NCBI GenBank assembly: GCA_003695825.1
Contig: RFHK01000132.1
Coordinates: forward strand, 1-34,214
DNA from: Gammaproteobacteria bacterium
GTDB lineage: Bacteria; Pseudomonadota; Gammaproteobacteria; Thiohalobacterales; Thiohalobacteraceae
Length of the DNA stretch: 34,214 nucleotides
Reading direction: 5' to 3'
Shown: piece by piece, positions 17,772 to 31,828 of the stretch
How the letters are laid out: every line of letters begins with the position of its first letter
Position numbering within the stretch: the stretch's first letter is position 1
Program-made: the position numbers and the translations under genes
Notes under the pieces: model-generated
The model's database searches: none
Told to the model about the DNA's origin: nothing
The model's input: the letters and a program-made list of their open reading frames with translations, nothing else

Positions 17772-18671
17772 TTACTTGTTCGCGATCTCCTCGAGCTTCT
17801 TCGCCGGGACCACCTGCCCGTCGAGGCCGGCCTCCTTGGCGCTCTTGCCGTAGGCCACGGCGAGGAGCTGCGAGTAGTAGACCACCGGCATCTTGAAGTG
17901 GGTGCCGAACTTCCGGTTGATCTGGTCCTGGTAGACCTCGACGTTCATCTGGCACACCGGGCAGGGTGTGACGATCATCTCGGCGCCGCCGTCGTAGGCG
18001 GCCTCGATGATGTCCTTGATGAGCGCCTGGCTCTTGTCCGGCTCGGAGAAGGCCAGGGCGCCGCCGCAGCAGGAGACCTTCTTCTCGTAGTCCTCCACGG
18101 GCTCGGCCCCGACGGTCTCGATCATCTTGTCGAGGTACTTTGGATTCTCGAAGGACTCGCCGGCGATCCCGAAGGGCCGGTTGGTCTGGCAGCCGACGTA
18201 ACCGGCGATCTTCATGCCCTCGAGCGGCTTCTTGACGTGCCGGCCGAGTTCTTCGTAGCCGAAATCCTCGATGAGCACCTCGACCATGTGCCGGACCTTC
18301 TTGTTGGCCTGGACCTTGAGCCCGGCCGCGGCCAGGGCCTCGTTGGTCTCCTTCATGAGTTCTTCGTCGGCATGCAGGCGCTCCTGGGTCTCGCGGGTGG
18401 CCAGCCAGCAGGCCGCGCAGGTGGCCACGATGTCCTGGTCCGGGTGGGCCTGCTCGGACAGCGCCATGTTGCGCGCCGACAGCGCCAGGCGCGGCAGCTC
18501 GCCGCCACCGGCATACCCGATGGAGGCCGAGCAGCAGTTCCAGTCCGGGATCTCGTTGAGTTCGATGTCCAGCACCTCGCACATGGCGTTGACGGACACC
18601 TGGTAGTTGGATGCCGAAGCCGCCTTTTGCGAGGAGCAGCCCGGGTAGAAGGAATAGGATTTCTTTGCCAT
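17772..18671 (-). CDS. hdrB: HdrB-like CCG-domain subunit of the Qmo/Hdr complex
   Basis: A 299-residue protein with two complete CCG domains: C12, C46-C47, C85, C88 and C161, C201-C202, C237, C240. In heterodisulfide reductase HdrB these domains bind non-cubane [4Fe-4S] clusters at a disulfide-active site. It is soluble, with no membrane helix. It is the last gene of qmoA-qmoB-hdrC-hdrB and has a GAGGAG ribosome site. In organisms where the membrane subunit QmoC is replaced by HdrC and HdrB, these proteins are thought to exchange electrons with QmoAB. The real electron partner here (a thiol/disulfide, ferredoxin or a quinone-linked protein) is unknown. Confidence 0.9.
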   Translation of the reverse strand: MAKKSYSFYPGCSSQKAASASNYQVSVNAMCEVLDIELNEIPDWNCCSASIGYAGGGELPRLALSARNMALSEQAHPDQDIVATCAACWLATRETQERLHADEELMKETNEALAAAGLKVQANKKVRHMVEVLIEDFGYEELGRHVKKPLEGMKIAGYVGCQTNRPFGIAGESFENPKYLDKMIETVGAEPVEDYEKKVSCCGGALAFSEPDKSQALIKDIIEAAYDGGAEMIVTPCPVCQMNVEVYQDQINRKFGTHFKMPVVYYSQLLAVAYGKSAKEAGLDGQVVPAKKLEEIANK

Positions 18672-18687: not shown

Positions 18688-19305
18688 TCAGGCCTTCATG
18701 CCGATCTTGCGTTCCTCGATCTCCTCGGCCTTGGCGAGGATGGCGTGGAGGCCCTTGATGTCCTTGCACTTGTGGCCGCCGACGAGCTCGAACGGGTTCA
18801 TGCGCTTGGCCTTGAGCATGGCCAGGCCCAGGTCCTTGTTCTCGAGCGCGGTCTTGAGGCCTTCGCCGACCTTGAAGTAGAGCGCGAGTCCCAGCTTGAG
18901 CTCGTTGACCCGGCCGGTCTTGGTGAGGTTGTCCCAGAACAGCTGGGCGAACTTGGCCGTGGGCTGCTCCTTGGGCGCCAGGCCCAGGCGCTTCGCGTAG
19001 GTGGCCAGGCCGTGGATGATGTGCGTGATCGGCAGGCCGCGCGGGCAGCGGGCGATGCAGTTGTAGCAGGAGGTGCACATCCACATGGAATCGGACTTGA
19101 GCACCTCGTCACGCTTGCCGGCGCGGATCATCATGAAGAGCTCCTGCGGCGGATGCTCCCAGTAGGGACCGAAGGGGCAGGAGCCGGAGCAGACGCCGCA
19201 CTGCATGCACATCTTGACCCATTCGCCTTCCTCGACGTTGTGCTCCACTTCCTTGAGGAAGTTCTCGCGGTACTTTTCGATCATCTGCTGGTTGTAGTCG
19301 GTCAT
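18688..19305 (-). CDS. hdrC: HdrC-like ferredoxin subunit
   Basis: A 205-residue iron-sulfur protein with two CX2CX2CX3C motifs, C33/C36/C39/C43 and C77/C80/C83/C87, each ending in CP as in HdrC and QmoC. It lacks the C-terminal cytochrome b-like membrane part that QmoC has; the remaining 115 residues are soluble and helical. It would wire electrons between QmoAB and HdrB. The ATG lies 10 bp after qmoB, with an AGGAG ribosome site that overlaps the qmoB stop codon, so the two are translationally coupled; hdrB follows 16 bp later. Confidence 0.92.
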   Translation of the reverse strand: MTDYNQQMIEKYRENFLKEVEHNVEEGEWVKMCMQCGVCSGSCPFGPYWEHPPQELFMMIRAGKRDEVLKSDSMWMCTSCYNCIARCPRGLPITHIIHGLATYAKRLGLAPKEQPTAKFAQLFWDNLTKTGRVNELKLGLALYFKVGEGLKTALENKDLGLAMLKAKRMNPFELVGGHKCKDIKGLHAILAKAEEIEERKIGMKA

Positions 19306-19315
19306 GATCTCGCTC

Positions 19316-21580
19316 CTAGAACTTGAAGGGGCTCATACCGATCTCGTCGATCGTCTTGGCCATGTCGTTGATGAGCTTCGGCGCACGCTCGATGTCGGTG
19401 ATGGCGACCTCGTAGGTGGCCACGCGCTCCTTCTCGAGGTTGAGCTGCTGGAGCGTGTCGTCGATCTTGCTCATGCGGTAGTGGGCCATCTCCGAACCCT
19501 TCACGAAGTGGCACTGGTAGTTCTCGCCCTTCTGGCAGCCCATGAGGATGACGCCGTCGTAACCGCTGTTGAGCGCGTCGGTCACCCAGATGGTGTTGAC
19601 CGAGCCCAGGCAGCGGACCGGGATGACGCGCGCCCACTGGCTGTAGTGGATGCCCTGCATGGCGGCCATGTCGAGCGCCGGGTAGGCGTCGTTCTCGCAG
19701 GCGAGCACCAGGATGCGCGGCTTCTCGTCGAACTCGTCGGGGATGTCGACGTTCTTGATCTGCTGTCCGACAGTGTCCACCGAGTAGTTCTCGAAGGAGA
19801 TGACGCGCACCGGGCAGGCGCCCATGCAGGTGCCGCAGCGGCGGCAGCGCGACTCGTTGAACACCGGGTAGCGCTGCTCGTCCTCGTCGATGGCGCCGAA
19901 GGGGCACTCCACGGTGCAGCGCTTGCACTGGGTGCAGCCTTCCTTGCGGAACGACGGGAAGGAGAGGTCGCCCGAGCGCGGATGCGCGGCACGGCCCAGC
20001 TTGGCGTTCTCGATGGCCTGGATGGCCTTCAGGGCCGCACCGGTGGCGTCCTCCATGGCCTGCTCGGCGTCCATCGGGCGGCGTACCGGGCCGGTGGTGT
20101 AGATGCCGGTGCGGCGCGTCTCGTAGGGGAAGCAGATGAAGTGGGAGTCGGCGAAGCCGTATTTCAGCTGCGGCACGTCCGGTCCCTGGCGGTAGGTCAG
20201 GTTGAGGATGGACTCGACCGGGACGCTGACCTCGCCCTCGGCGTTCTCCTCGCCGCCGGCCTCGTCACCCTCGCTCTCTCCCTCGACGTTGGGCTTGGTG
20301 AGCGCCTCGATGTCGACGCCGGCATTGGGCACCATGCCGGTGGCGAGCACCACGAGGTCGGCCTGCTCGGTGTCTTCCTCGTCGAGGATGAGGTCCTTGA
20401 AGCGGACCTTGACGCTGCCGCCGTCGGCGGTCACCTCGGTGACCTTGCCCTTGCGGAAGGTGATCTCCTTGTCCTGGCCGGCGCGGTAGAAGTCCTCGCC
20501 CGGGGCGCCCGGGGTGCGCAGGTCGTCGAACAGGATGAGGGTCTCGATGTCCGGGTTCTGGTCCTTGAAGTACATCGCCTGCTTGATGGAGGTCAGGCAG
20601 CAGTGCCCGGAACAGTAGGGCAGGTGCCCTTCCTGGTCGCTGCGCTGGCCGGCGCACTGGACGAAGACGACCTTCTTCACCTCCTTGCCGTCGGAGGGGC
20701 GCTTGATGGGGCCGCCGTCGGCCTCGATGGCCAGCTTCTCGAGCCCCATCTGGTCGACCACGTCCGGGATACGGCCGCCGCCCATCTCGGGCAGGTTGGC
20801 GAGGTCGTAGGGCTTGAAGCCGGAGGCCTGGATGATGGCGCCGAAGTTTTCGGTCACCGTCTCGCCGGATTCCACGCTGATGTCGGCGGAGAAGCGGCCG
20901 GGCGCGCCCGAGGTGCGGGTCAGGTGGGCATTGAGGTAGACCGTGATGTTGGGGTGCGCCTCGATCTCCTTGGCCAGGGCGGGGACGGGATTGTCCACCA
21001 GCTGGTCGAAGGGGGGACGCGTGGGGATGTGCTTCCACACGTCGGCCATGGCCCCGCCGAGGCGGCCGCTCTTCTCCACCAGGGTCACCGGGTAGCCGGC
21101 CTTGGCGGCCTCGAGCGCGGCCTTCATGCCGGAGAGGCCGCCGCCGACCACCAGCACGCGCTCTTCGTGGCCCCGGTTCTCGTTGGGGTGCGGCGGGTTC
21201 ATGTGGCGGGTCTCGGCGCAGCCCATGCGGATGTAGTCGGCCGCCATCTCCTGGGTGGTCTCGCGCAGCTCCTCCTCGTCGGGACGCACCCAGATGACGC
21301 CCTCGCGCAGGTTCACGCGCGAGACGGCGCAGCCGTCGAAGTCGAAGGCCTCGGTCTTGGCGCGCCGCGAGCAGGCGGCGATGACGACGTGGTTGACGCC
21401 CTCGTTGTCGATGTCGTCCTGGATCATCTTCACGCCGTCGGCGCTGCAGAGGTAGTCGTGCTGGCGCACGATGTTCGACTTGCCCTCGCGCTCGGCGATC
21501 ATGGCCAGGTTGTCGCAGTCCAGGCGCTCGCCCAGACCGCAGCCCTTGCAGATGTAGGTTCCGATCTTCATGTCAGCCAC
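19316..21580 (-). CDS. qmoB: QmoB-like flavoprotein (HdrA-like with C-terminal MvhD domain)
   Basis: A 754-residue fusion of an HdrA-like FAD protein with a C-terminal MvhD-like domain, the layout of QmoB, which exchanges electrons with APS reductase. An N-terminal cysteine cluster (CKGCGLGERLDC) precedes the FAD site VVGGGLSG near residue 146. Two ferredoxin motifs (CTQCKRCTVECP and CRRCGTCMGACP) come near residues 560-600, then the MvhD part with CLGSVNTIWV and MGCQKGENYQCHFVKG. A highly acidic stretch of about 20 residues (GESEGDEAGGEENAEGE) near residue 440 looks like a loop insertion. GTG at 21580 is chosen as start because GGAGGG lies 8 nt ahead, against 17 nt for the ATG at 21571; this start is 4 bp after qmoA. 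Confidence 0.93.
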   Translation of the reverse strand: MADMKIGTYICKGCGLGERLDCDNLAMIAEREGKSNIVRQHDYLCSADGVKMIQDDIDNEGVNHVVIAACSRRAKTEAFDFDGCAVSRVNLREGVIWVRPDEEELRETTQEMAADYIRMGCAETRHMNPPHPNENRGHEERVLVVGGGLSGMKAALEAAKAGYPVTLVEKSGRLGGAMADVWKHIPTRPPFDQLVDNPVPALAKEIEAHPNITVYLNAHLTRTSGAPGRFSADISVESGETVTENFGAIIQASGFKPYDLANLPEMGGGRIPDVVDQMGLEKLAIEADGGPIKRPSDGKEVKKVVFVQCAGQRSDQEGHLPYCSGHCCLTSIKQAMYFKDQNPDIETLILFDDLRTPGAPGEDFYRAGQDKEITFRKGKVTEVTADGGSVKVRFKDLILDEEDTEQADLVVLATGMVPNAGVDIEALTKPNVEGESEGDEAGGEENAEGEVSVPVESILNLTYRQGPDVPQLKYGFADSHFICFPYETRRTGIYTTGPVRRPMDAEQAMEDATGAALKAIQAIENAKLGRAAHPRSGDLSFPSFRKEGCTQCKRCTVECPFGAIDEDEQRYPVFNESRCRRCGTCMGACPVRVISFENYSVDTVGQQIKNVDIPDEFDEKPRILVLACENDAYPALDMAAMQGIHYSQWARVIPVRCLGSVNTIWVTDALNSGYDGVILMGCQKGENYQCHFVKGSEMAHYRMSKIDDTLQQLNLEKERVATYEVAITDIERAPKLINDMAKTIDEIGMSPFKF

Positions 21581-21584
21581 GGTT

Positions 21585-22871
21585 TCAACCCTCCGTTCCC
21601 GCAACGCGATTGATCACCTGGATGGCGTGCAGTGCACTGGCGGTGGCACTCTGCACGGCCCGGTTGACGTCCAGGGCGTCCTCCGAGCACCCGGCGGCGA
21701 AGATGGCGCCGTTGGCCTCGTCTGGGACGATGAAGCCTTCCTCGTTGAAACGGACCTTGGCCGGGAAGGCGTCGGCCGGCACGCTCGGCTCCATGCCGAT
21801 CGCCAGCACCACCAGGTCGTGCGGATTGCTGTAGCGGTGATAGCCTTCGATGTCCACGCCGTGCAGGATGGGATTGCGCGTCTCCTTGTCCTCGGTGATG
21901 CTCGCCACCTTGGACTTGATGAACCGCGTGTTGGGATCTTCCTTCACCCGGCGGTGGAAGTCGTCGATGCGGTCGATGGCACGGATGTCGATGTAGTAGA
22001 TGCTGGCCTTGTAGTCGTCGCCGTACTTCTCGCGCAGGTAGGTGGTCTGCTTGAGCGTGGCCATGCAGCAGATGCGCGAGCAGTGCTTGAGGTGGTTGCG
22101 GTCGCGCGAGCCGGCGCACTGGATGAAGGCGACGTCCTTGGCCTCCTTGCCGTCGGAGGGGCGCAGGATCCTGCCGCCGGTGGGGCCGAAGGGGTCGGCC
22201 ATGCGTTCGAACTCGACCGAGGTGATGACGTTCGGGTAGCGGTCGTAGCCATAGGGCTGGATCTTGTTGGCGTCGTACGGCTTCCAGCCGGTGGCCCAGA
22301 TGATGGCGCCGACCGTGAGCTTGATCTCCTCGGGCTGCATGTCGAGGTCGATGGCGTCGTACTTGCAGGCCGCCTTCGCCTTCTCCGCGTCCGGCGTGCC
22401 GAGGATGCGCGGATCGATCACGTAGCGCTGGGGATAGGCCAGGTTGTGCGGCAGGTAGGCGCCCTTGCGCTTGCCCAGCCCGAAGTTGTATTCGTCGTCG
22501 AACTCGGCTTCCACGGCGCGTGCGCAGGCGCCGCAGGCGGTGCAGTTCTCGTTGACGTAGCGCGGGTGTTTCTTCAGGGTCACCGTGTAGTTGCCGGGCT
22601 CGCCCTCGACGGCCGTCACCTCGGTGAGGGTCATGAGCCGGAGGTTCTTGTTGGCCTTGGTACGGCGCAGGTTGATCTCCAGGCCGCACTTGGGATGGCA
22701 CAGCTTGGGAAAATACTTGTAGAGCTGCGCGACGCGCCCGCCGACAGAGGGGTTCTTCTCGACCAGGATCACCTGCTTGCCGCATTCGGCTGCTTCCAGC
22801 GCTGCGGACATGCCGCTGATCCCGCCACCGACCACGAGGATGGTCTGGTTGGTTGCGATTGCCTCCGGCAT
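21585..22871 (-). CDS. qmoA: QmoA-like FAD/iron-sulfur protein
   Basis: A 428-residue HdrA-like flavoprotein. The FAD-binding motif VVGGGISG is near residue 15. Cysteines C58 and C62 (CHPKCG), C110/C113/C116 (CTACGAC) and HCSRICC near residue 280 fit the HdrA/QmoA pattern. The ATG at 22871 is preferred over the upstream one at 22916 because a GAGGAGG ribosome site lies just ahead. It heads the operon qmoA-qmoB-hdrC-hdrB. In sulfate reducers and many sulfur oxidisers this complex links APS reductase (AprAB) with the electron-transport chain; aprAB and sat are not in the window. It is divergent from cbbQ, with a 371-bp gap. Confidence 0.93.
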   Translation of the reverse strand: MPEAIATNQTILVVGGGISGMSAALEAAECGKQVILVEKNPSVGGRVAQLYKYFPKLCHPKCGLEINLRRTKANKNLRLMTLTEVTAVEGEPGNYTVTLKKHPRYVNENCTACGACARAVEAEFDDEYNFGLGKRKGAYLPHNLAYPQRYVIDPRILGTPDAEKAKAACKYDAIDLDMQPEEIKLTVGAIIWATGWKPYDANKIQPYGYDRYPNVITSVEFERMADPFGPTGGRILRPSDGKEAKDVAFIQCAGSRDRNHLKHCSRICCMATLKQTTYLREKYGDDYKASIYYIDIRAIDRIDDFHRRVKEDPNTRFIKSKVASITEDKETRNPILHGVDIEGYHRYSNPHDLVVLAIGMEPSVPADAFPAKVRFNEEGFIVPDEANGAIFAAGCSEDALDVNRAVQSATASALHAIQVINRVAGTEG

Positions 22872-23242
22872 GGAATGTCCTCCTCGGATACCGTTGAACG
22901 TGAGACTCTGAGCCATTTCCGCGGGCGTCGGCGAGATCGCGCCGGCGCCGGGGAATTCCGCGGGGCCGGGAGCGGTGCCGCCCGTCCCGGGGCCGAATGG
23001 GGTTGCGGGACCGCCAGGGTCGCGAATTCAGGACGTGCAAAGATACCCTGACTGCCGGCGCTGCGCCATATCCCGACAGTCGTATCAGGATCGAAATTTC
23101 AAATAGATAAATAGAATGTATATATAAGGTATTGCTGATGATGCGGGCTGTGATTCCGCCACCCGGGTTGCGGGCTTTGTTGCACGCGGGAAGGCGTGCC
23201 GGGTAGAGTGGCCGAAGAAGCTGGCATCCAAGGAGGCGAGCC
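22872..23242. promoter_or_regulatory. Divergent promoter region of qmoA and cbbQ
   Basis: No gene is seen in these 371 bp. The region is GC-rich except for a striking AT-rich patch at about 23090-23135. On the plus strand TTTCAA (23097-23102) and TATATA (23119-23124), 16 bp apart, could drive cbbQ. The same AT-rich patch could hold a minus-strand promoter for qmoA, which would give a long leader. No named operator was recognised. Confidence 0.4.
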
Positions 23243-24055
23243 GTGCACGCCCGCGCCCTGAAACCGGAAGAATATTTCGTCGAATCAGAACCTTACTATG
23301 AGCCCGTGGGGGACGAGATCGAGGTCTTCGAGGCCGCCTGGAAGAACCGGCTGCCGGTGCTGCTCAAGGGGCCGACCGGCTGCGGGAAGACCCGCTTCAT
23401 GGAACACATGGCCTGGCGGCTCAAGCGCCCGCTCATCACGGTCTCCTGCCATGACGACCTGACCGCCTCCGACCTGGTGGGCCGCTTCCTGGTCACCGGC
23501 GGGGACACCCGCTGGGTGGACGGGCCGCTGGCGCGCGCTGTGCGCCACGGCGCCATTTGCTATCTCGACGAGATCGTCGAGGCACGCAAGGACACCACGG
23601 TGGTCATCCACCCGCTCGCCGACGACCGCCGGGTGCTGCCGATGGAGAAGCTGGGCGAGATCCTGGAGGCCAGCCCGGAATTCTGCCTGGCCATCTCCTA
23701 CAATCCCGGCTACCAGAGCGTGCTCAAGGACCTCAAGCAGAGCACCCGGCAGCGCTTCGTGGCGCTCAACTTCGACTACCCGAACCCGCAGCTCGAGGCC
23801 CGCATCATCGAGAAGGAATCGGGCATCGACCCCGAGATGGCCGAGCGCCTGGTCCGCTTCGCCCAGATGACGCGCAACCTCAAGGGCAGTGGTCTGGAAG
23901 AGGGCGCCAGCACCCGCCTGCTGGTGCACGCCGCCAAACTCATGAAGACCGGCATCAACCCGGTGGTCGCCTGCCGCACCGCCATCTCCGAGGCGCTCAC
24001 CGACGACCCCGAGATGCTCACCGCCGTCAACGAGCTGAGCGCCTCGGTGTTTTGA
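23243..24055 (+). CDS. cbbQ: CbbQ/NorQ-type MoxR AAA+ ATPase
   Basis: A 270-residue AAA+ ATPase. Walker A is GPTGCGKT (residues 43-50), Walker B is ICYLDEI (105-111). The rest, including VVIHPLADDRRVLPMEKLGE and FCLAISYNPGYQSVLKDLKQSTRQRF, is the CbbQ/NorQ pattern. CbbQ works with CbbO as a Rubisco activase that ejects inhibitory sugar phosphates; NorQ works with NorD on nitric oxide reductase. The Calvin-cycle genes nearby favour CbbQ, but no Rubisco or nor gene is in the window, so the choice is an inference. GTG is the start, with AAGGAGG 6 nt upstream. Its partner is 486 bp downstream, unusually far. Confidence 0.85.
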   Translation: MHARALKPEEYFVESEPYYEPVGDEIEVFEAAWKNRLPVLLKGPTGCGKTRFMEHMAWRLKRPLITVSCHDDLTASDLVGRFLVTGGDTRWVDGPLARAVRHGAICYLDEIVEARKDTTVVIHPLADDRRVLPMEKLGEILEASPEFCLAISYNPGYQSVLKDLKQSTRQRFVALNFDYPNPQLEARIIEKESGIDPEMAERLVRFAQMTRNLKGSGLEEGASTRLLVHAAKLMKTGINPVVACRTAISEALTDDPEMLTAVNELSASVF

Positions 24056-24056
24056 G

Positions 24057-24191
24057 TGTGAGGCGTGAGGTGTGAGGAGCTGGGAGATAGGAGCTGGAAG
24101 CAAGAAGCTGGAAGCAAGAAGCTAGGAGCAAGAAGCTGGAAGCTGGGAGGTAGGAGCTGGAAGTCGGAAGTCGGGAGTCGGAAGTCGGAAG
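24057..24191. repeat. 7-bp tandem repeat tract (about 19 units)
   Basis: Starting one base after the cbbQ stop codon the sequence keeps a 7-bp period: TGTGAGG, CGTGAGG, TGTGAGG, AGCTGGG, AGATAGG, AGCTGGA, AGCAAGA and so on to AGTCGGA. Units vary in a limited way around AGNNGGA. It is the reverse complement in type of the tract at 31682-31828. All three frames would give repetitive peptides and no plausible gene covers it. Confidence 0.85.
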
Positions 24192-24246
24192 GGATGTGGA
24201 CCGAGGACGACAGCGAACAAAGAATCGCCGAAGCGGCTTGTCGACG
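24188..24246 (-). repeat. Conserved block of the composite repeat (copy 1)
   Basis: These 59 bp, read on the minus strand, align with 31629-31688 on the plus strand with roughly 85% identity and one gap by eye. Shared cores include TTGTTCGCT and CATCCCTTCCGAC. In both copies the block sits beside the heptad tract in the same relative order, so tract and block form one unit. Confidence 0.7.
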
Positions 24247-24270
24247 TGTCTGCGAACCCTGACGCAGAGT

Positions 24271-24389
24271 GCGCAGAGGCACAGAGGACGCAGAGGGTAA
24301 AGCATTTGTCATGGTGATTGGTGGAAGTGATGGCGAATCGGGAGCCCTGAATGGCGAGTGTTCCCTCTGTACCCTCTGTGCCTCCGTGT
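24271..24389. repeat. Imperfect 27-bp inverted repeat of GCACAGAGG type
   Basis: Arm one (24271-24297) and the reverse complement of arm two (24363-24389) match at 21 of 27 positions, sharing the core GGAGGCACAGAGG or close variants, with about 65 bp between. It lies between cbbQ and the cbbO-like gene. A second small dyad, GGGATATCC and GGATATCCC, flanks the last part of this gap near 24459 and 24507. The whole 24056-24541 gap shows only such repeats and no gene. Confidence 0.6.
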
Positions 24390-24541
24390 TCTCCGTGTTA
24401 TGCATCAATGGAGCCGGGCGAAACGCTGTTTCGATTCCTGATCTGGTCCATCTCAACGGGATATCCTCAACAAGGATGCTTTCACGGGTTTTGTGGATTT
24501 CGTGGCGGATATCCCTGCCCGGTATCTGACCGTGCATTTCC

Positions 24542-27500
24542 ATGACTGACGAGTTCGACCTGATCCTGGAGCCCGAGGGCGACTACGCGCTGCTGGACTT
24601 CGGCGGGGGCCGCCGGCTGGAGCGCTGGGGCGAGTACCTCGTCGACCGCCCGGACCGCGCGGCCAGGGGCCGCCCCGCCCGGGAGCGGTGGACGCCGGAC
24701 TGGCAGTTCGTGGGCGACCAGAAGGGCGGACACTGGCGGGCGGCCCGGCCGGGGTTGCCGCGCCAGTGGCGGGTGCGGTTGGGAGACTTTCACGTGCGGG
24801 TGGCGCTCGGGCCGCATGGCAGCGTGGGCGTCAAGCCGCGGGCCTTGCTGGCCGCCGCCTGGGCGCGGGCGCGGCTCGAAGGCTGCTACCACCTCGACGA
24901 GATCCGGGTACTCAACCTGTTCGCCGGCAGCGGGCTGGTCACGCGGGCCTGTGTCGCCGCCGGCGCCGACGTGGTGCACGTCGACGGCAGCGAGCGGTTG
25001 ATCGCGCTGGCCCGGGAGGAGGTCCACTCGCCGCAGGTCGAATGGGTGCACGAGGACGCCATGACCTGGGTCGAGGGCGCCCTGCGCCGCGGCGAACGCT
25101 TCGACCTGCTGATGCTTTCCCCCCCGTACTTCGGCCGCGGGCCCCACGGCAAGGTCTGGGACACCGAGTGCGACATGGCCCACCTGATGAAGAAGCTGCC
25201 CGCCCTGGTCTCCGAGACGTGCCGCGGCATCTGGCTGGGCGGGGACGAGGAAGGCTGGAGTGCCGCGTCCCTGGCCCGCCTGCTGCGCGATGCCCTGCCC
25301 GGGCGAACCCTCGAGACGCATCACCTGGCGATACGGTGCGCCGACGGCCGCCTGCTGGCTTCCGGCGTGGCGGCCTGCTGGTTCGACGAGAGCGACGATG
25401 CCTGGATGGGGGCCGACCGACCGCCCCTGGATGCCGCGCGCATGGAGGAGCGCCTCGACGTGCCGCTCGATCCCGTGCTCTCCTCGCGCCGCACGGCCGG
25501 CGGCATCGCCCGCGAGCTGGCCGGTTTCGAGCGCGAGCAGCAGGAGTTCGTGCTCCACTGGGTGAACGTCATCGCGCACACCAACGCCGAGATGGCCTAC
25601 CAGTTCGCCGCGGCCTCGCCCCGGGCCTTGCGCCTCATGGACCGCGACGGCGTGGAGGGCTGGCTGATCGCGGCCATGGACGCCTACGACCGCACGGGGC
25701 TCTATGCCGGCATCGAGGCTCTGCAGAAGGTGGAGGAATATGCCGCCTTGCAGGCGCGGCGCCAGAGCGGCCTGGCGCTGGAGAAGGTGGTCAACGTGCT
25801 CGAGGCCTTCGTGCACGGGCTCAACGGTCGGCGGCTCGCCATCGAGGCCGGCGAGGTGCCCTGGACCGACACCGAGACCCTGTACCTGCCGCCCCTGCTC
25901 GACCGGTATCCCGAGCGCGAGACCAACTTCCGGCTCTACGAGGCCATGGCCCTGCACCTCTGGGCGCAGACCTGGTATGGCACCTGGCGGGAAGACCCGG
26001 CCGCGCGTGCCGACCAGTCCCCCTGGCCCGAGCGTTACCTGCGGCTGTTCCACGCCCTGGAGACGGCCCGGCTGGATGCCTGCATCGCCCGCGACCTGCC
26101 GGGCATGGCGCGCGAGATGGCCGCGCTGCGCGCCGGGCACGCCTGGCCGGCGGCCTGGGCGGGGGCGCTCGCCGACGTCGCCCGGCCCGGCGCCACCGTG
26201 GAGACGGTGCACGACTGGTTGCCGCGGTTGCTCGAGCTCGACGAGACCCCGGCGCCGCTGCCCTACCAGGGTGAACTGCGGCCGCAGGAGGTGGCCCGGG
26301 TGCGGGCGGCCCGCATCGAGGCCGACCGGCGCCGCTTCCGTCTGATGTTGCTGCGCATGGAAGAGGAATTGCGCCGGCGCCTGGAGCAGGCACGCGGCGA
26401 GACGGAGCCCCGGGAAGCTGGGGAGACACCGCCGCGCAACCCGCTGGAACGCTTCGAGCTGAAGCGTCCCGACGAAGCCGTTCCCCCGGAAGACCTGGTC
26501 GATGCCTGGGAGATCACCCTCGACGGCAAGCCGATCCCGCCGCCGGAGGAGGCCAGGGCGGTCATGGCCTCGATCCTCCAGGACCTGGGCGAGATCCCGG
26601 ACACCTACCTGCACGCCGCCGGCGAGGGGCCCTACGATCCGGACCTGGAACTGCCCCAGCCGAGCCCCGAGGACGTCTGGAAGGGGGCCTACCACGAGGA
26701 AGGGGCCTTCCACTACAACGAGTGGGACTACGAACGCCAGCACTACCGCAAGCACTGGGCGGTGCTGCGCGAGCTGGACGTGCAGCCGGTGCACGACGGA
26801 TTCGTGGAGGAGACGGTGCGCCGCTACAGCGGCGTGGTCAAGCACCTGCGCCGCACCTTCGAGGCCTTGCGCGGCGAGGACCGGTTGCTGAAGAAGCAGC
26901 CGCACGGCGACGACATCGACCTCGACGCCGTGGTCGAGGCCTGGGCCGACAGCCATGCCGGCATGGAGATGTCCGACCGGCTGTTCACCAAGATGCACAA
27001 GCTCGAGCGCAACATCGCGGTCCTGTTCATGGTGGACATGAGCGGTTCCACCAAGGGGTGGATCAACGACGCCGAGCGCGAGGCGCTGGTGCTCCTGTGC
27101 GAGGCGCTCGAGACGCTGGGAGACCGTTATGCCATCTACGGTTTCTCCGGGACCACCCGCAAGCGCTGCGAGGTCTATCGTATCAAGCGCTTCGACGAGC
27201 CCTACGACGAGGCGGTGCGCGCGCGCATCAGCGGTATCCGGCCACGCGACTACACGCGCATGGGCGTGGCCATCCGCCATCTCTCGAGGCTGCTGGCCGA
27301 GGTGGAGGCGAAGACCCGGCTGCTGATCACGCTCTCCGACGGCAAGCCCGACGACCTGGACAACTACCGCGGCGCCTACGGCATCGAGGACACGCGCATG
27401 GCGCTGATCGAGGCCAAGCGCGAGGGCATCCATCCCTACTGCATCACCATCGACACCGAGGCGATGGACTACCTGCCGCACATGTACGGGCCGGTCAACT

Positions 27501-27571
27501 ACACGGTGATCGACGAGGTGCGCAAGCTGCCGCTGAAGGTCTCCGACATCTACCGCCGCCTGACGACCTGA
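24542..27571 (+). CDS. cbbO: Fusion protein: RlmI-like SAM methyltransferase + CbbO/NorD VWA domain
   Basis: A 1009-residue protein. Residues about 10-285 form a complete class I methyltransferase of the RlmI-like type: LLDFGGGRRLERWGEYLVDRP at the start, motif I LNLFAGSG (124-131), an acidic residue in HVDGS (D148), and SPPYFGRGPHGKVW (193-206), where the family usually has DPP. Residues about 315-1009 match CbbO/NorD: REQQEFVLHWVNVIAHTNAE at the start of that part, a charged middle, and a C-terminal VWA domain with a full MIDAS (D832-M-S-G-S836, later threonine in RDYTRMG, aspartate in LSDGKPDD). The VWA part would partner the upstream CbbQ. Usual CbbO/NorD proteins lack the methyltransferase. 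An internal ATG at 25442 could start a CbbO-only form but lacks a good ribosome site. Confidence 0.88.
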   Translation: MTDEFDLILEPEGDYALLDFGGGRRLERWGEYLVDRPDRAARGRPARERWTPDWQFVGDQKGGHWRAARPGLPRQWRVRLGDFHVRVALGPHGSVGVKPRALLAAAWARARLEGCYHLDEIRVLNLFAGSGLVTRACVAAGADVVHVDGSERLIALAREEVHSPQVEWVHEDAMTWVEGALRRGERFDLLMLSPPYFGRGPHGKVWDTECDMAHLMKKLPALVSETCRGIWLGGDEEGWSAASLARLLRDALPGRTLETHHLAIRCADGRLLASGVAACWFDESDDAWMGADRPPLDAARMEERLDVPLDPVLSSRRTAGGIARELAGFEREQQEFVLHWVNVIAHTNAEMAYQFAAASPRALRLMDRDGVEGWLIAAMDAYDRTGLYAGIEALQKVEEYAALQARRQSGLALEKVVNVLEAFVHGLNGRRLAIEAGEVPWTDTETLYLPPLLDRYPERETNFRLYEAMALHLWAQTWYGTWREDPAARADQSPWPERYLRLFHALETARLDACIARDLPGMAREMAALRAGHAWPAAWAGALADVARPGATVETVHDWLPRLLELDETPAPLPYQGELRPQEVARVRAARIEADRRRFRLMLLRMEEELRRRLEQARGETEPREAGETPPRNPLERFELKRPDEAVPPEDLVDAWEITLDGKPIPPPEEARAVMASILQDLGEIPDTYLHAAGEGPYDPDLELPQPSPEDVWKGAYHEEGAFHYNEWDYERQHYRKHWAVLRELDVQPVHDGFVEETVRRYSGVVKHLRRTFEALRGEDRLLKKQPHGDDIDLDAVVEAWADSHAGMEMSDRLFTKMHKLERNIAVLFMVDMSGSTKGWINDAEREALVLLCEALETLGDRYAIYGFSGTTRKRCEVYRIKRFDEPYDEAVRARISGIRPRDYTRMGVAIRHLSRLLAEVEAKTRLLITLSDGKPDDLDNYRGAYGIEDTRMALIEAKREGIHPYCITIDTEAMDYLPHMYGPVNYTVIDEVRKLPLKVSDIYRRLTT

Positions 27572-29704: not shown

Positions 29705-29785
29705 ACGGGCGACGCCCGGAAGCCGATGCCGGGCGGGATGCGGGCGACGACTCGAACCGGAAGCTCGCAGGCATCTGGGGGATAT

Positions 29786-29816
29786 GGCCACGGAAGCACG
29801 CGGAAGGGGAGTGAGG
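29786..29816 (+). repeat. 31-bp dispersed repeat, inverted copy at 31824-31853
   Basis: This sequence (core CACGGAAGCACGCGGAAGG) matches the reverse complement of 31824-31853 with a single-base difference. A shortened copy lacking 10 bp is at 9714-9733. The two long copies face each other across the HemN-like gene. The 229-bp gap 29705-29932 holds no other feature except the ribosome site of the next gene. Confidence 0.75.
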
Positions 29817-29932
29817 CGTGTACTGCTGCCTGCACGGCATCCGTGTTATTTTCCATCGCCGACGGGGGGATGCGCACGCCTCGGGGGGAGCGGGCGCCAT
29901 GGAAAAAGCAACCACCAACAAGGAGGACTGGA

Positions 29933-31549
29933 ATGGAACACGTCAGCGAATGCTTCAACAAGCGGTCGCGCCTGGTGCGTGGCCATGCCGTGCAGGACCC
30001 GGCCCGCCCCTTGCACCGTGGGGACCCGGGCACCCTCGAGGCGAGACTCGCCTCCCTGCTCAGGATCCAGAACGACTTCTTTCCCTGCTTCGACTGGACC
30101 TTCCCCCCGCCGCTGTTGACCAAGCAGTCTCCCCCCGCCTCCGCCGAGGCGCTCTTCTCCGGGACCTCGATCCTCCCCGGCCGCTATTCGATCTACCTGC
30201 ACAGCCCGTTCTGCAAGACGCTGTGCAATTTCTGCTACTACGCCGTGCTGCCGGGGAAGGGCATCCAGCGGGCGGAGACCTACGTGGACTACCTCTTGCG
30301 CGAGATGGCCCTCTACGCCGACGTGCTCGCCGACGCGGAATGTGAATCGGTCTACTTCGGAGGGGGAACGCCCACCTTCCTCGACGACGGGCTCCTGTCG
30401 CGGATCTTCGAGGGCCTGCACCGGTACTTTCGCATCGATCCTGCCGCCGAGATCACCATCGAGGCGGCGCCCGGCACCCTCGGGCGCGACAAGCTGGCCC
30501 ATTTGCAGTCACTGGGTGTCAATCGCCTGAGTTACGGTATCCAGACCCTCGACGAGGCCCTGCTCGCCGGCATGAACCGCCATTACCGCGTCGCCGAGGC
30601 CGAGCGCGAGCTCGTCGCGGCGGTCGAGGTGATCGGAAACGTCAACGTGGACACCATGTACGGTTTCGACGGCGAGCGGGAGGACACGCTGCCGGCCACG
30701 CTGGAACGTTTCGTGGAGCTGGGCGTGCCCTCGGTGTCCATCTATGCGCTCGACAAGCAGCGCAGTCAGACCAAGCAGAACTTCGAGCCGCCGAAGGACG
30801 CGCTCTACGAGTACAAGATCCGCCAGTTCGCGCGGGCCGAGGCCCTGCTCAGGGACCGGGGATTCCGTCCCGTATTGCAGAACGTCTTCCTCGATCCGGA
30901 CCGGGCCTCTTACATCCACCAGGTGCGCCGCTGGGACAACCTGCCGCTGCTCGGGTTGGGGCTCAACAGCCAGGGGTATGCCCCGGCCACGCCCTACCAG
31001 AACCTGGGCAGCCTGAAGCTCTATTGCGAGGCCATCGACGCCGGCCGCATTCCGGTCTCGACGATGGAGCGGCTGGACCGCGAACTCGATTTCTGCCGCG
31101 AACTCACCAGCAAGCTGCGCTTCACGCAGGTGTCACGGGCCGAGCTGCATTTCAAGTACGGCGTGGACATCGACGAGGTCTTCGGCGATCTCACCCGCGC
31201 CCTCGAAGGGCTGGGTTTCGTCGAACGAGCGGGAGAACTGCTGCGGATGACGCCCAAGGCGGCCTACTACAACAACATCATTCCCATGCTCTATGCGCCG
31301 GACGCCTTCAAGGAGCGGCTCACGGGCCTGCCGGAGGAATACATCGAGCGCTTTCCGGTGCCCTACGTGCTCACCGGACTGGGGGCGTGCCAGTCGGCCC
31401 CGTTCCGTTTCCGGGATCGCCCACGGGAACGGCGCCTGCACGCCGACCGGAGGCGGGGACGGGCGGAGGGGCACGCTCCGGCCCAGGAGCGCCGGGCCGG
31501 GCCGGGACGCCGCGCCACGGACCACGCCGGTCTGCGCATCGCGGCCTGA
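29933..31549 (+). CDS. HemN/HemW-like radical SAM protein with a basic C-terminal tail
   Basis: A 538-residue radical SAM protein related to oxygen-independent coproporphyrinogen oxidase and HemW. The cluster motif is FCKTLCNFC with C94, C98 and C101 (CX3CX2C); VYFGGGTPTFL is the glycine motif and NVDTMYGFDGE and SIYALD fit the family. Whether it acts in haem synthesis, haem insertion or another reaction is not clear. Residues 494-538 are a low-complexity tail with 14 arginines in 45 residues and look unlike the rest; no better frame was found there. The start is the ATG at 29933 with an AAGGAGG ribosome site, not the longer frame from 29726, which crosses a repeat. Confidence 0.85.
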   Translation: MEHVSECFNKRSRLVRGHAVQDPARPLHRGDPGTLEARLASLLRIQNDFFPCFDWTFPPPLLTKQSPPASAEALFSGTSILPGRYSIYLHSPFCKTLCNFCYYAVLPGKGIQRAETYVDYLLREMALYADVLADAECESVYFGGGTPTFLDDGLLSRIFEGLHRYFRIDPAAEITIEAAPGTLGRDKLAHLQSLGVNRLSYGIQTLDEALLAGMNRHYRVAEAERELVAAVEVIGNVNVDTMYGFDGEREDTLPATLERFVELGVPSVSIYALDKQRSQTKQNFEPPKDALYEYKIRQFARAEALLRDRGFRPVLQNVFLDPDRASYIHQVRRWDNLPLLGLGLNSQGYAPATPYQNLGSLKLYCEAIDAGRIPVSTMERLDRELDFCRELTSKLRFTQVSRAELHFKYGVDIDEVFGDLTRALEGLGFVERAGELLRMTPKAAYYNNIIPMLYAPDAFKERLTGLPEEYIERFPVPYVLTGLGACQSAPFRFRDRPRERRLHADRRRGRAEGHAPAQERRAGPGRRATDHAGLRIAA

Positions 31550-31628: not shown

Positions 31629-31688
31629 ATCGACGCGCCGCTTCGCGTTTCATTGTTCGCTATCGCCCTCGATCCGCATCCCTTCCGA
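31629..31688 (+). repeat. Conserved block of the composite repeat (copy 2)
   Basis: The plus strand here aligns with the minus strand of 24188-24246, with shared cores TTGTTCGCT and CATCCCTTCCGAC and about 85% identity by eye. It leads directly into the heptad tract. Confidence 0.7.
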
Positions 31689-31828
31689 CTCCTGACTCCT
31701 GACTCCTGACTCCTGTCTTCTGACTTCTGTCTTCCAGCTCCCAGCTCCTAGCTCCTAGCTCCCAGCTCCCAGCTCCTAGCTTCTTGCTCCCAGCTCCTAG
31801 CTTCTTGCTCCCAGCTCCTTACTCCTCA
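31682..31828. repeat. 7-bp tandem repeat tract (21 units)
   Basis: Twenty-one consecutive heptads with units CTCCTGA, CTTCTGA, CTCCCAG, CTCCTAG and CTTCTTG, drifting from a CTCCTGA type to a CTCCYAG type. It is the inverse orientation of the tract at 24057-24191. The whole gap 31550-31952 (403 bp) holds the conserved block, this tract, a 30-bp dispersed repeat and a terminator; no gene is seen. Confidence 0.88.

Follow-up and report, generated by a model that had tools for sequence, protein, structure and literature searches.

Pairs of a MoxR AAA+ ATPase and a VWA protein serve in the maturation or repair of enzymes: NorQD inserts iron in cNOR (PMC9976466, PMC13036017), CbbQO reactivates RuBisCO (PMC4660213), and RavA-ViaA is reported to modulate the flavo/Fe-S respiratory enzyme fumarate reductase (PMC10585395). 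For NorD, the N-terminal domain has been proposed to be the source of target specificity and the leverage point (PMC9976466, PMC13036017). A methyltransferase is not mentioned in the NorQD and CbbQO papers (PMC9976466, PMC13036017, PMC4660213), and the open papers that were searched contained no description of an architecture that unites a methyltransferase with a VWA protein. Among the known electron-transfer modules of sulfur oxidisers is QmoAB-HdrCB (PMC6397845).

The stretch of DNA that was analysed, the window, comprises 34,214 nucleotides of a gammaproteobacterial genome of the Thiohalobacteraceae (GenBank assembly GCA_003695825.1, contig RFHK01000132.1). In an initial annotation, it had been proposed that a complete RlmI-like methyltransferase (MTase) is fused to a CbbO/NorD-type VWA protein next to a CbbQ ATPase. 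Inspection of the open reading frames of the window revealed a single uninterrupted frame on the plus strand from an ATG start at 24542 to 27571, which encodes 1009 amino acids. The product starts with a class I MTase domain, continues with a helical part and ends in a VWA domain of the NorD type, the MIDAS of which is intact. The features of the locus are the following:

17772..18671, minus strand, HdrB-like CCG protein
18688..19305, minus strand, HdrC-like iron-sulfur protein
19316..21604, minus strand, QmoB-like HdrA protein
21585..22916, minus strand, QmoA-like HdrA flavoprotein, divergent from cbbQ (NCBIfam HdrA2 match)
23243..24055, plus strand, CbbQ/NorQ-type MoxR AAA+ ATPase of the Qmo-linked clade (AAA_5 E 1e-33, CbbQ_C E 3e-31)
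24056..24541, no strand, intergenic gap of 486 bp between cbbQ and the fusion gene, with 7/14/28-bp tandem repeats
24542..25390, plus strand, N-terminal MTase domain, residues 1-283, class I SAM-methyltransferase of the 2IGT family with degenerate motif IV (SPP) (profile match, AlphaFold2, family alignment)
24911..24934, plus strand, MTase motif I LNLFAGSG, SAM-binding glycine loop, residues 124-131 (family alignment)
25115..25141, plus strand, MTase motif IV LSPPYFGRG, Ser in place of the Asp of DPP, residues 192-200 (family alignment)
25391..25432, plus strand, inter-domain linker, the fusion junction, residues 284-297 (low pLDDT at 283-291; start of unfused relatives)
25433..26398, plus strand, helical domain, residues 298-619 (predicted helices 298-619; conserved with unfused relatives)
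26399..26686, plus strand, linker with little structure that connects the helical to the VWA domain, residues 620-715 (low pLDDT across most of 620-721)
26687..27568, plus strand, C-terminal VWA domain, residues 716-1009, with the equivalent of the NorD finger at about 770-808 (phmmer to NorD chains)
27035..27049, plus strand, MIDAS DMSGS (D832, S834, S836), completed by T905 and D933 (alignment of 15 members)

Curated Pfam profiles matched both ends of the protein weakly, just below the cut-off (methyltransferase at residues 119-226, 26 bits; VWA at residues 827-934, 23 bits), and therefore stronger tests of the motif-based assignment were needed. With a profile of six relatives, residues 9-264 aligned end to end with 2IGT, an Agrobacterium SAM-dependent methyltransferase (E 2.8e-38), and RlmI/YccW (3c0k) was second (E 3e-10). 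An AlphaFold2 model of residues 1-290 (pLDDT 83, pTM 0.83) also had 2IGT as its best fold match (E 6e-26), the N-terminal part included, in line with the proposal of a complete MTase fold. All three motifs that had been named were found in place, i.e., LNLFAGSG, HVDGS (residues 146-150) and LSPPYFGRG. Judged by these matches, the domain belongs to the 2IGT family, which is itself related to RlmI. In contrast to the earlier term RlmI-like, the nearest family is that of 2IGT and not RlmI itself, and membership in RlmI, the 23S rRNA m5C1962 methyltransferase, was rejected (NCBIfam 19.5 bits versus a cut-off of 712). The remaining 719 residues matched NorD chains in phmmer searches (9qhd E 7e-54, 9qh6 E 4e-52). 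The homology covers the finger and the MIDAS, the five residues of which did not vary among the 15 members, fused and unfused, that were aligned, in support of the proposed VWA/MIDAS partner. In a full-length model the MTase domain, a linker, the helical domain, a second linker and the VWA domain follow one another, with a relative placement that is not confident and an MTase domain that is unfixed (pTM 0.37). Unfused VWA relatives start at the equivalent of residues 293-300, exactly at the fusion junction. A separate VWA protein translated from an internal start was considered and rejected; the ATG that could serve as such a start, at residue 301, lacks conservation.

This in-frame fusion was found in 13 genomes. 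It is full-length (about 1000 codons) in 11 of them (the window, G006/L032, G005/L004, G055/L034, G100/L033, G109/L035, G214, G272, G293, G299 and G165) and cut by contig ends in two (G077, G195). One of the carriers, G005, is a 100% complete genome in a single contig, and G006 is a Thiohalobacter MAG. The junction is conserved among the fused copies, and their MTase parts share 35-68% identity across the 13 genomes. Of 321 genomes drawn from the class, 12 contained the fusion and three a solo copy of the same MTase lineage. In a draw of 299 genomes of the phylum, the only fusion was that of the window, and all remaining hits, with E 5e-47 or weaker, were to 2IGT-type enzymes that are free-standing. 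A plasmid search yielded partial VWA matches only. Neither a frameshift nor an assembly join was found at the junction, adjacent separate genes for the MTase and an intact VWA protein were not found in any locus examined, and a sensitive profile scan of all loci did not find an MTase remnant beside unfused VWA genes. The proposed fusion is thus genuine, and it recurs in related genomes. With moderate support, the VWA tree fits one origin of the fusion and one apparent loss, that of G093, which lies inside the fused clade and seemingly has lost the MTase domain; G293 is set apart in this tree with weak support. Because the unfused relatives lack the MTase domain and G093 has apparently lost it, the core function does not depend on the domain.

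In the family alignment, the motif IV Asp (DPP) is present in all 18 free-standing outgroup enzymes, in all three solo copies and in a divergent free-standing copy (L109), versus only two of the 13 fused copies, L035 and L114 (2/13 versus 22/22 free-standing; Fisher p 2e-7, phylogeny ignored). The forms found in fused copies are SPP, TPP, NAP, RPP, RPR, PVP, QPP or DPP, and the earlier suggestion that catalysis is altered is thus probably correct. The last Gly of motif I (residue 131) is kept in 13/13 fused, 3/3 solo and 18/18 outgroup copies. The motif II acid is absent in three fused copies (L034, L115, L114), the outgroup-conserved Thr130 and acid at 148 of motifs I and II are altered in many of them, and positions 40, 105, 130 and 160, constant in outgroup and solo copies, vary. 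Invariant among the fused copies are, among others, W54, G93, D207, G229, W231 and W239. For the pair L110/L111, dN/dS was about 0.21 in the MTase domain versus 0.18 in the rest of the protein, and for L034/L115 it was about 0.09 in the MTase domain, with dS near saturation. The same-genus genome G001, the copy of which is cut by a contig end, is not included in these values. The mean identity among fused copies was 0.42 for the MTase domain, 0.44 for the helical domain and 0.84 for the VWA domain. By its dN/dS, the fused MTase domain stays under purifying selection. As the motif IV Asp is mostly lost while the domain is kept under this selection, it is probably in the main a maintained pseudo-methyltransferase with a non-catalytic role. 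This suggests that the fold was recruited as a handle, not as an enzyme. Losing the motif IV Asp does not by itself prove that the domain is inactive.

The three solo MTases (G141, G253, G104) stand alone with htrA and hsp20 genes alongside, as in several fused loci, and they keep DPP. QmoA, the Qmo-type CbbQ and the Qmo-linked VWA clade were not found in these three genomes. Since the solo copies persist there, the MTase has, or had, a role that is independent of the AAA+/VWA machine, and the motif is canonical in these copies. In the single-contig genome G141 (L105 8665-10413), an intact solo MTase is located between a cbbQ remnant and the remnant of a VWA end, and this locus is caught in decay. 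The VWA remnant is in frame behind the MTase stop, which fits both the fission of a fused gene and a retained pre-fusion state. The divergent free-standing 2IGT-type MTase of L109 (8609-10489) precedes a MoxR-like AAA+ gene by a few hundred bases, at a contig end, possibly as an independent link of this MTase family to MoxR, possibly by chance.

The cbbQ gene lies upstream of the fusion gene and adjoins it in most loci; in G299 (L112 6321-8745) about 2.4 kb of other sequence separate the two. With this adjacent CbbQ/NorQ-type AAA+ gene and a C-terminal VWA domain with a complete MIDAS, the locus has two hallmarks of a MoxR AAA+/VWA remodelling pair. The CbbQ of the window belongs to a clade with 68-85% identity among its members, versus 53-65% to other CbbQ/NorQ copies. 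Many of the other CbbQ copies of related genomes are located within a few kb of RuBisCO. A second CbbQ/VWA pair of the window genome (L188 1-5985, G000:C138) adjoins a COX1-family/NorB-like gene and is probably NorQD. Within the NorQD/CbbQO kind, the pair of the window forms a branch of its own, which differs from the RuBisCO and NO-reductase pairs present in the same genomes. The CbbQ neighbour had been recognised correctly as to type, but its Qmo-linked clade is not that of RuBisCO CbbQ. Several genomes contain a second member of the same VWA clade (L136, L138, L143, L145, L147, L150; 51-55% identity), with differing neighbours in the loci inspected (histidine kinase, M19 peptidase, GGDEF/EAL). 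Arrays of 7/14/28-bp repeats occur in intergenic regions of the window at 24078-24191 and 31687-31826 (AGCTGGAAGC... and CCAGCTC..., mutually similar in reverse complement). Downstream, at 29726-31549, a HutW/HemW-like radical SAM protein is encoded, a relative of which also follows the fusion gene in G005. Rfam gave no match in the window.

The genetic link of the pair to qmoAB-hdrCB extends beyond the window. Among 321 genomes, 42 contained both the VWA clade and QmoA, 15 only the VWA clade, 15 only QmoA and 249 neither (odds ratio 46); the counts treat genomes as independent that partly share ancestry, and incompleteness of MAGs may have produced false absences. When both were on one contig, they lay within 5 kb in 18 of 24 genomes. 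The 15 genomes with the VWA clade but without detected QmoA include G272 (L110; 97% complete), which keeps an intact fusion and in which no CbbQ, QmoA or RuBisCO was found. To our knowledge, no assembly factors of QmoAB-HdrCB have been described.

A comparison with NorQ/NorD shows the same arrangement of a CbbQ/NorQ-type ATPase beside a VWA protein, a VWA domain that is alignable including the finger and MIDAS region, and an N-terminal helical part with a long linker, at the same place where the linker of NorD is unresolved (PMC13036017). In contrast to NorD, the protein carries an extra N-terminal MTase-fold domain, and the genetic partner of the pair is qmoAB-hdrCB, not norCB, beside which it is not located. 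Gene order, module types and a perfect MIDAS are shared with CbbQ/CbbO (PMC4660213), but the pair is not beside RuBisCO, which is on contig C36, and the VWA identity is only about 31-36%. With the 2IGT family the MTase part shares its whole length and the fold; it differs in being fused, in the loss of the motif IV Asp in 11/13 copies, the window copy among those without DPP, and in the replacement of several outgroup-invariant residues. RavA/ViaA resembles the pair as a MoxR/VWA pair that modulates a flavo/Fe-S respiratory complex (PMC10585395). It belongs to another subfamily and has no MTase domain, and the relation of the window pair to Qmo is deduced from genome context.

From this comparison the following model was derived. 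The 1009-aa protein would provide the VWA part of a NorQD/CbbQO-type MoxR AAA+/VWA remodelling machine and have the neighbouring CbbQ-type ATPase as its partner, and the pair would most likely be dedicated to the neighbouring QmoAB-HdrCB flavo/iron-sulfur complex, or to a partner of it. By analogy with NorQD, the VWA finger may plug the ATPase ring, the MIDAS may hold on to an acidic residue of the target, and the energy of ATP hydrolysis may be used to twist the VWA domain against an N-terminal anchor. An active stand-alone 2IGT-family methyltransferase would have become the in-frame N-terminal extension of the VWA protein, and most fused copies would then have lost the motif IV Asp while the domain stayed under purifying selection. 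The MTase fold would serve as an extra module for target recognition or leverage, with SAM/SAH binding possibly kept in some species; such an addition would suit the role in specificity and leverage proposed for the N-terminal domain of NorD. A remodelling machine for QmoAB-HdrCB or its partner, with an MTase-fold pseudo-enzyme module for target binding or leverage in its VWA subunit, is given close to an even chance. The proposal that sulfur oxidisers have an AAA+/VWA machine dedicated to QmoAB-HdrCB maturation, in which a recruited pseudo-MTase forms the head for target binding or ligand sensing, is put forward somewhat more tentatively.

Several other explanations were weighed. An artefact of assembly or annotation has a negligible probability, even though the window comes from a 209-contig draft, as the fusion is also present in the single-contig G005 and 11 further genomes with a conserved junction; an assembly join is ruled out by this recurrence in 13 genomes. 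A RuBisCO activase, i.e., a CbbO with an added domain, would be in accordance with the adjoining CbbQ-type ATPase, with the fact that most genomes tested are autotrophs with RuBisCO, and with the transketolase, GAPDH, pyruvate kinase and aldolase genes elsewhere in the window. However, most of the fused genomes tested have separate CbbQ copies a few kb from RuBisCO, the VWA domain shares about 41% identity with the NorB-side pair but about 31-36% with other CbbO-like proteins, the genetic linkage is to qmoAB-hdrCB, and G272 carries the fusion with no RuBisCO found there. This explanation is thus very improbable, and genome context speaks against reading the activase that had been suggested initially as one of RuBisCO.

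The remaining alternatives concern the MTase domain. It could still be active with changed chemistry and methylate the target or an RNA during maturation; SPPY resembles motif IV of amino-methyltransferases, and motif I and the motif II Asp are retained in the window copy, together with an [S/T]PP[Y/F] motif that also occurs as TPPF in L032. DPP is kept in two fused copies, and because solo copies with DPP persist without the VWA protein, the domain probably descends from an enzyme that acted on a substrate of its own. Against continued activity stand the patternless variation of motif IV in fused copies (NAP, RPR, PVP, QPP, RPP) and the three copies that are devoid of the motif II acid, and it is regarded as unlikely. 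With DPP lost repeatedly, a non-catalytic role is favoured over the idea of the initial annotation that the protein modifies its target as well. Its second idea, a domain that senses SAM or SAH and gates the remodelling machine, would explain why the glycine loop of motif I is conserved in all fused copies while motif IV decays. The change of Thr130 and of the acid at 148 in many of them does not agree with it, and we know of no precedent for such sensing in MoxR/VWA systems. Sensing is possible but not general, as residues of the cofactor site are eroded in several fused copies, and as an explanation for the family it is quite doubtful. It is also improbable, and more so, that the domain is a passenger, a neutrally decaying relic of a chance gene fusion. 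The loss of motifs, the fact that the MTase has diverged faster than the VWA domain, and the absence of the MTase from unfused relatives and apparently from G093 would fit a relic, but 13 genomes that have diverged deeply all retain the reading frame, dN/dS lies at about 0.09-0.21, the six residues named above are invariant, and the helical domain, itself no passenger, diverges to a similar extent.

The dedicated remodelling machine with an MTase-fold module would represent a previously unremarked MoxR/VWA branch tied to QmoAB-HdrCB, and thus a specific candidate for an assembly factor of this complex. The family offers a natural series, from a free, active-looking enzyme to a fused, degraded enzyme, a VWA protein without the domain, and the enzyme alone after loss of the machine, which is well suited to study how an enzyme turns into a structural module. 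If the model is true, the protein would combine a novel target of a chaperone with a novel function for the SAM-methyltransferase fold.
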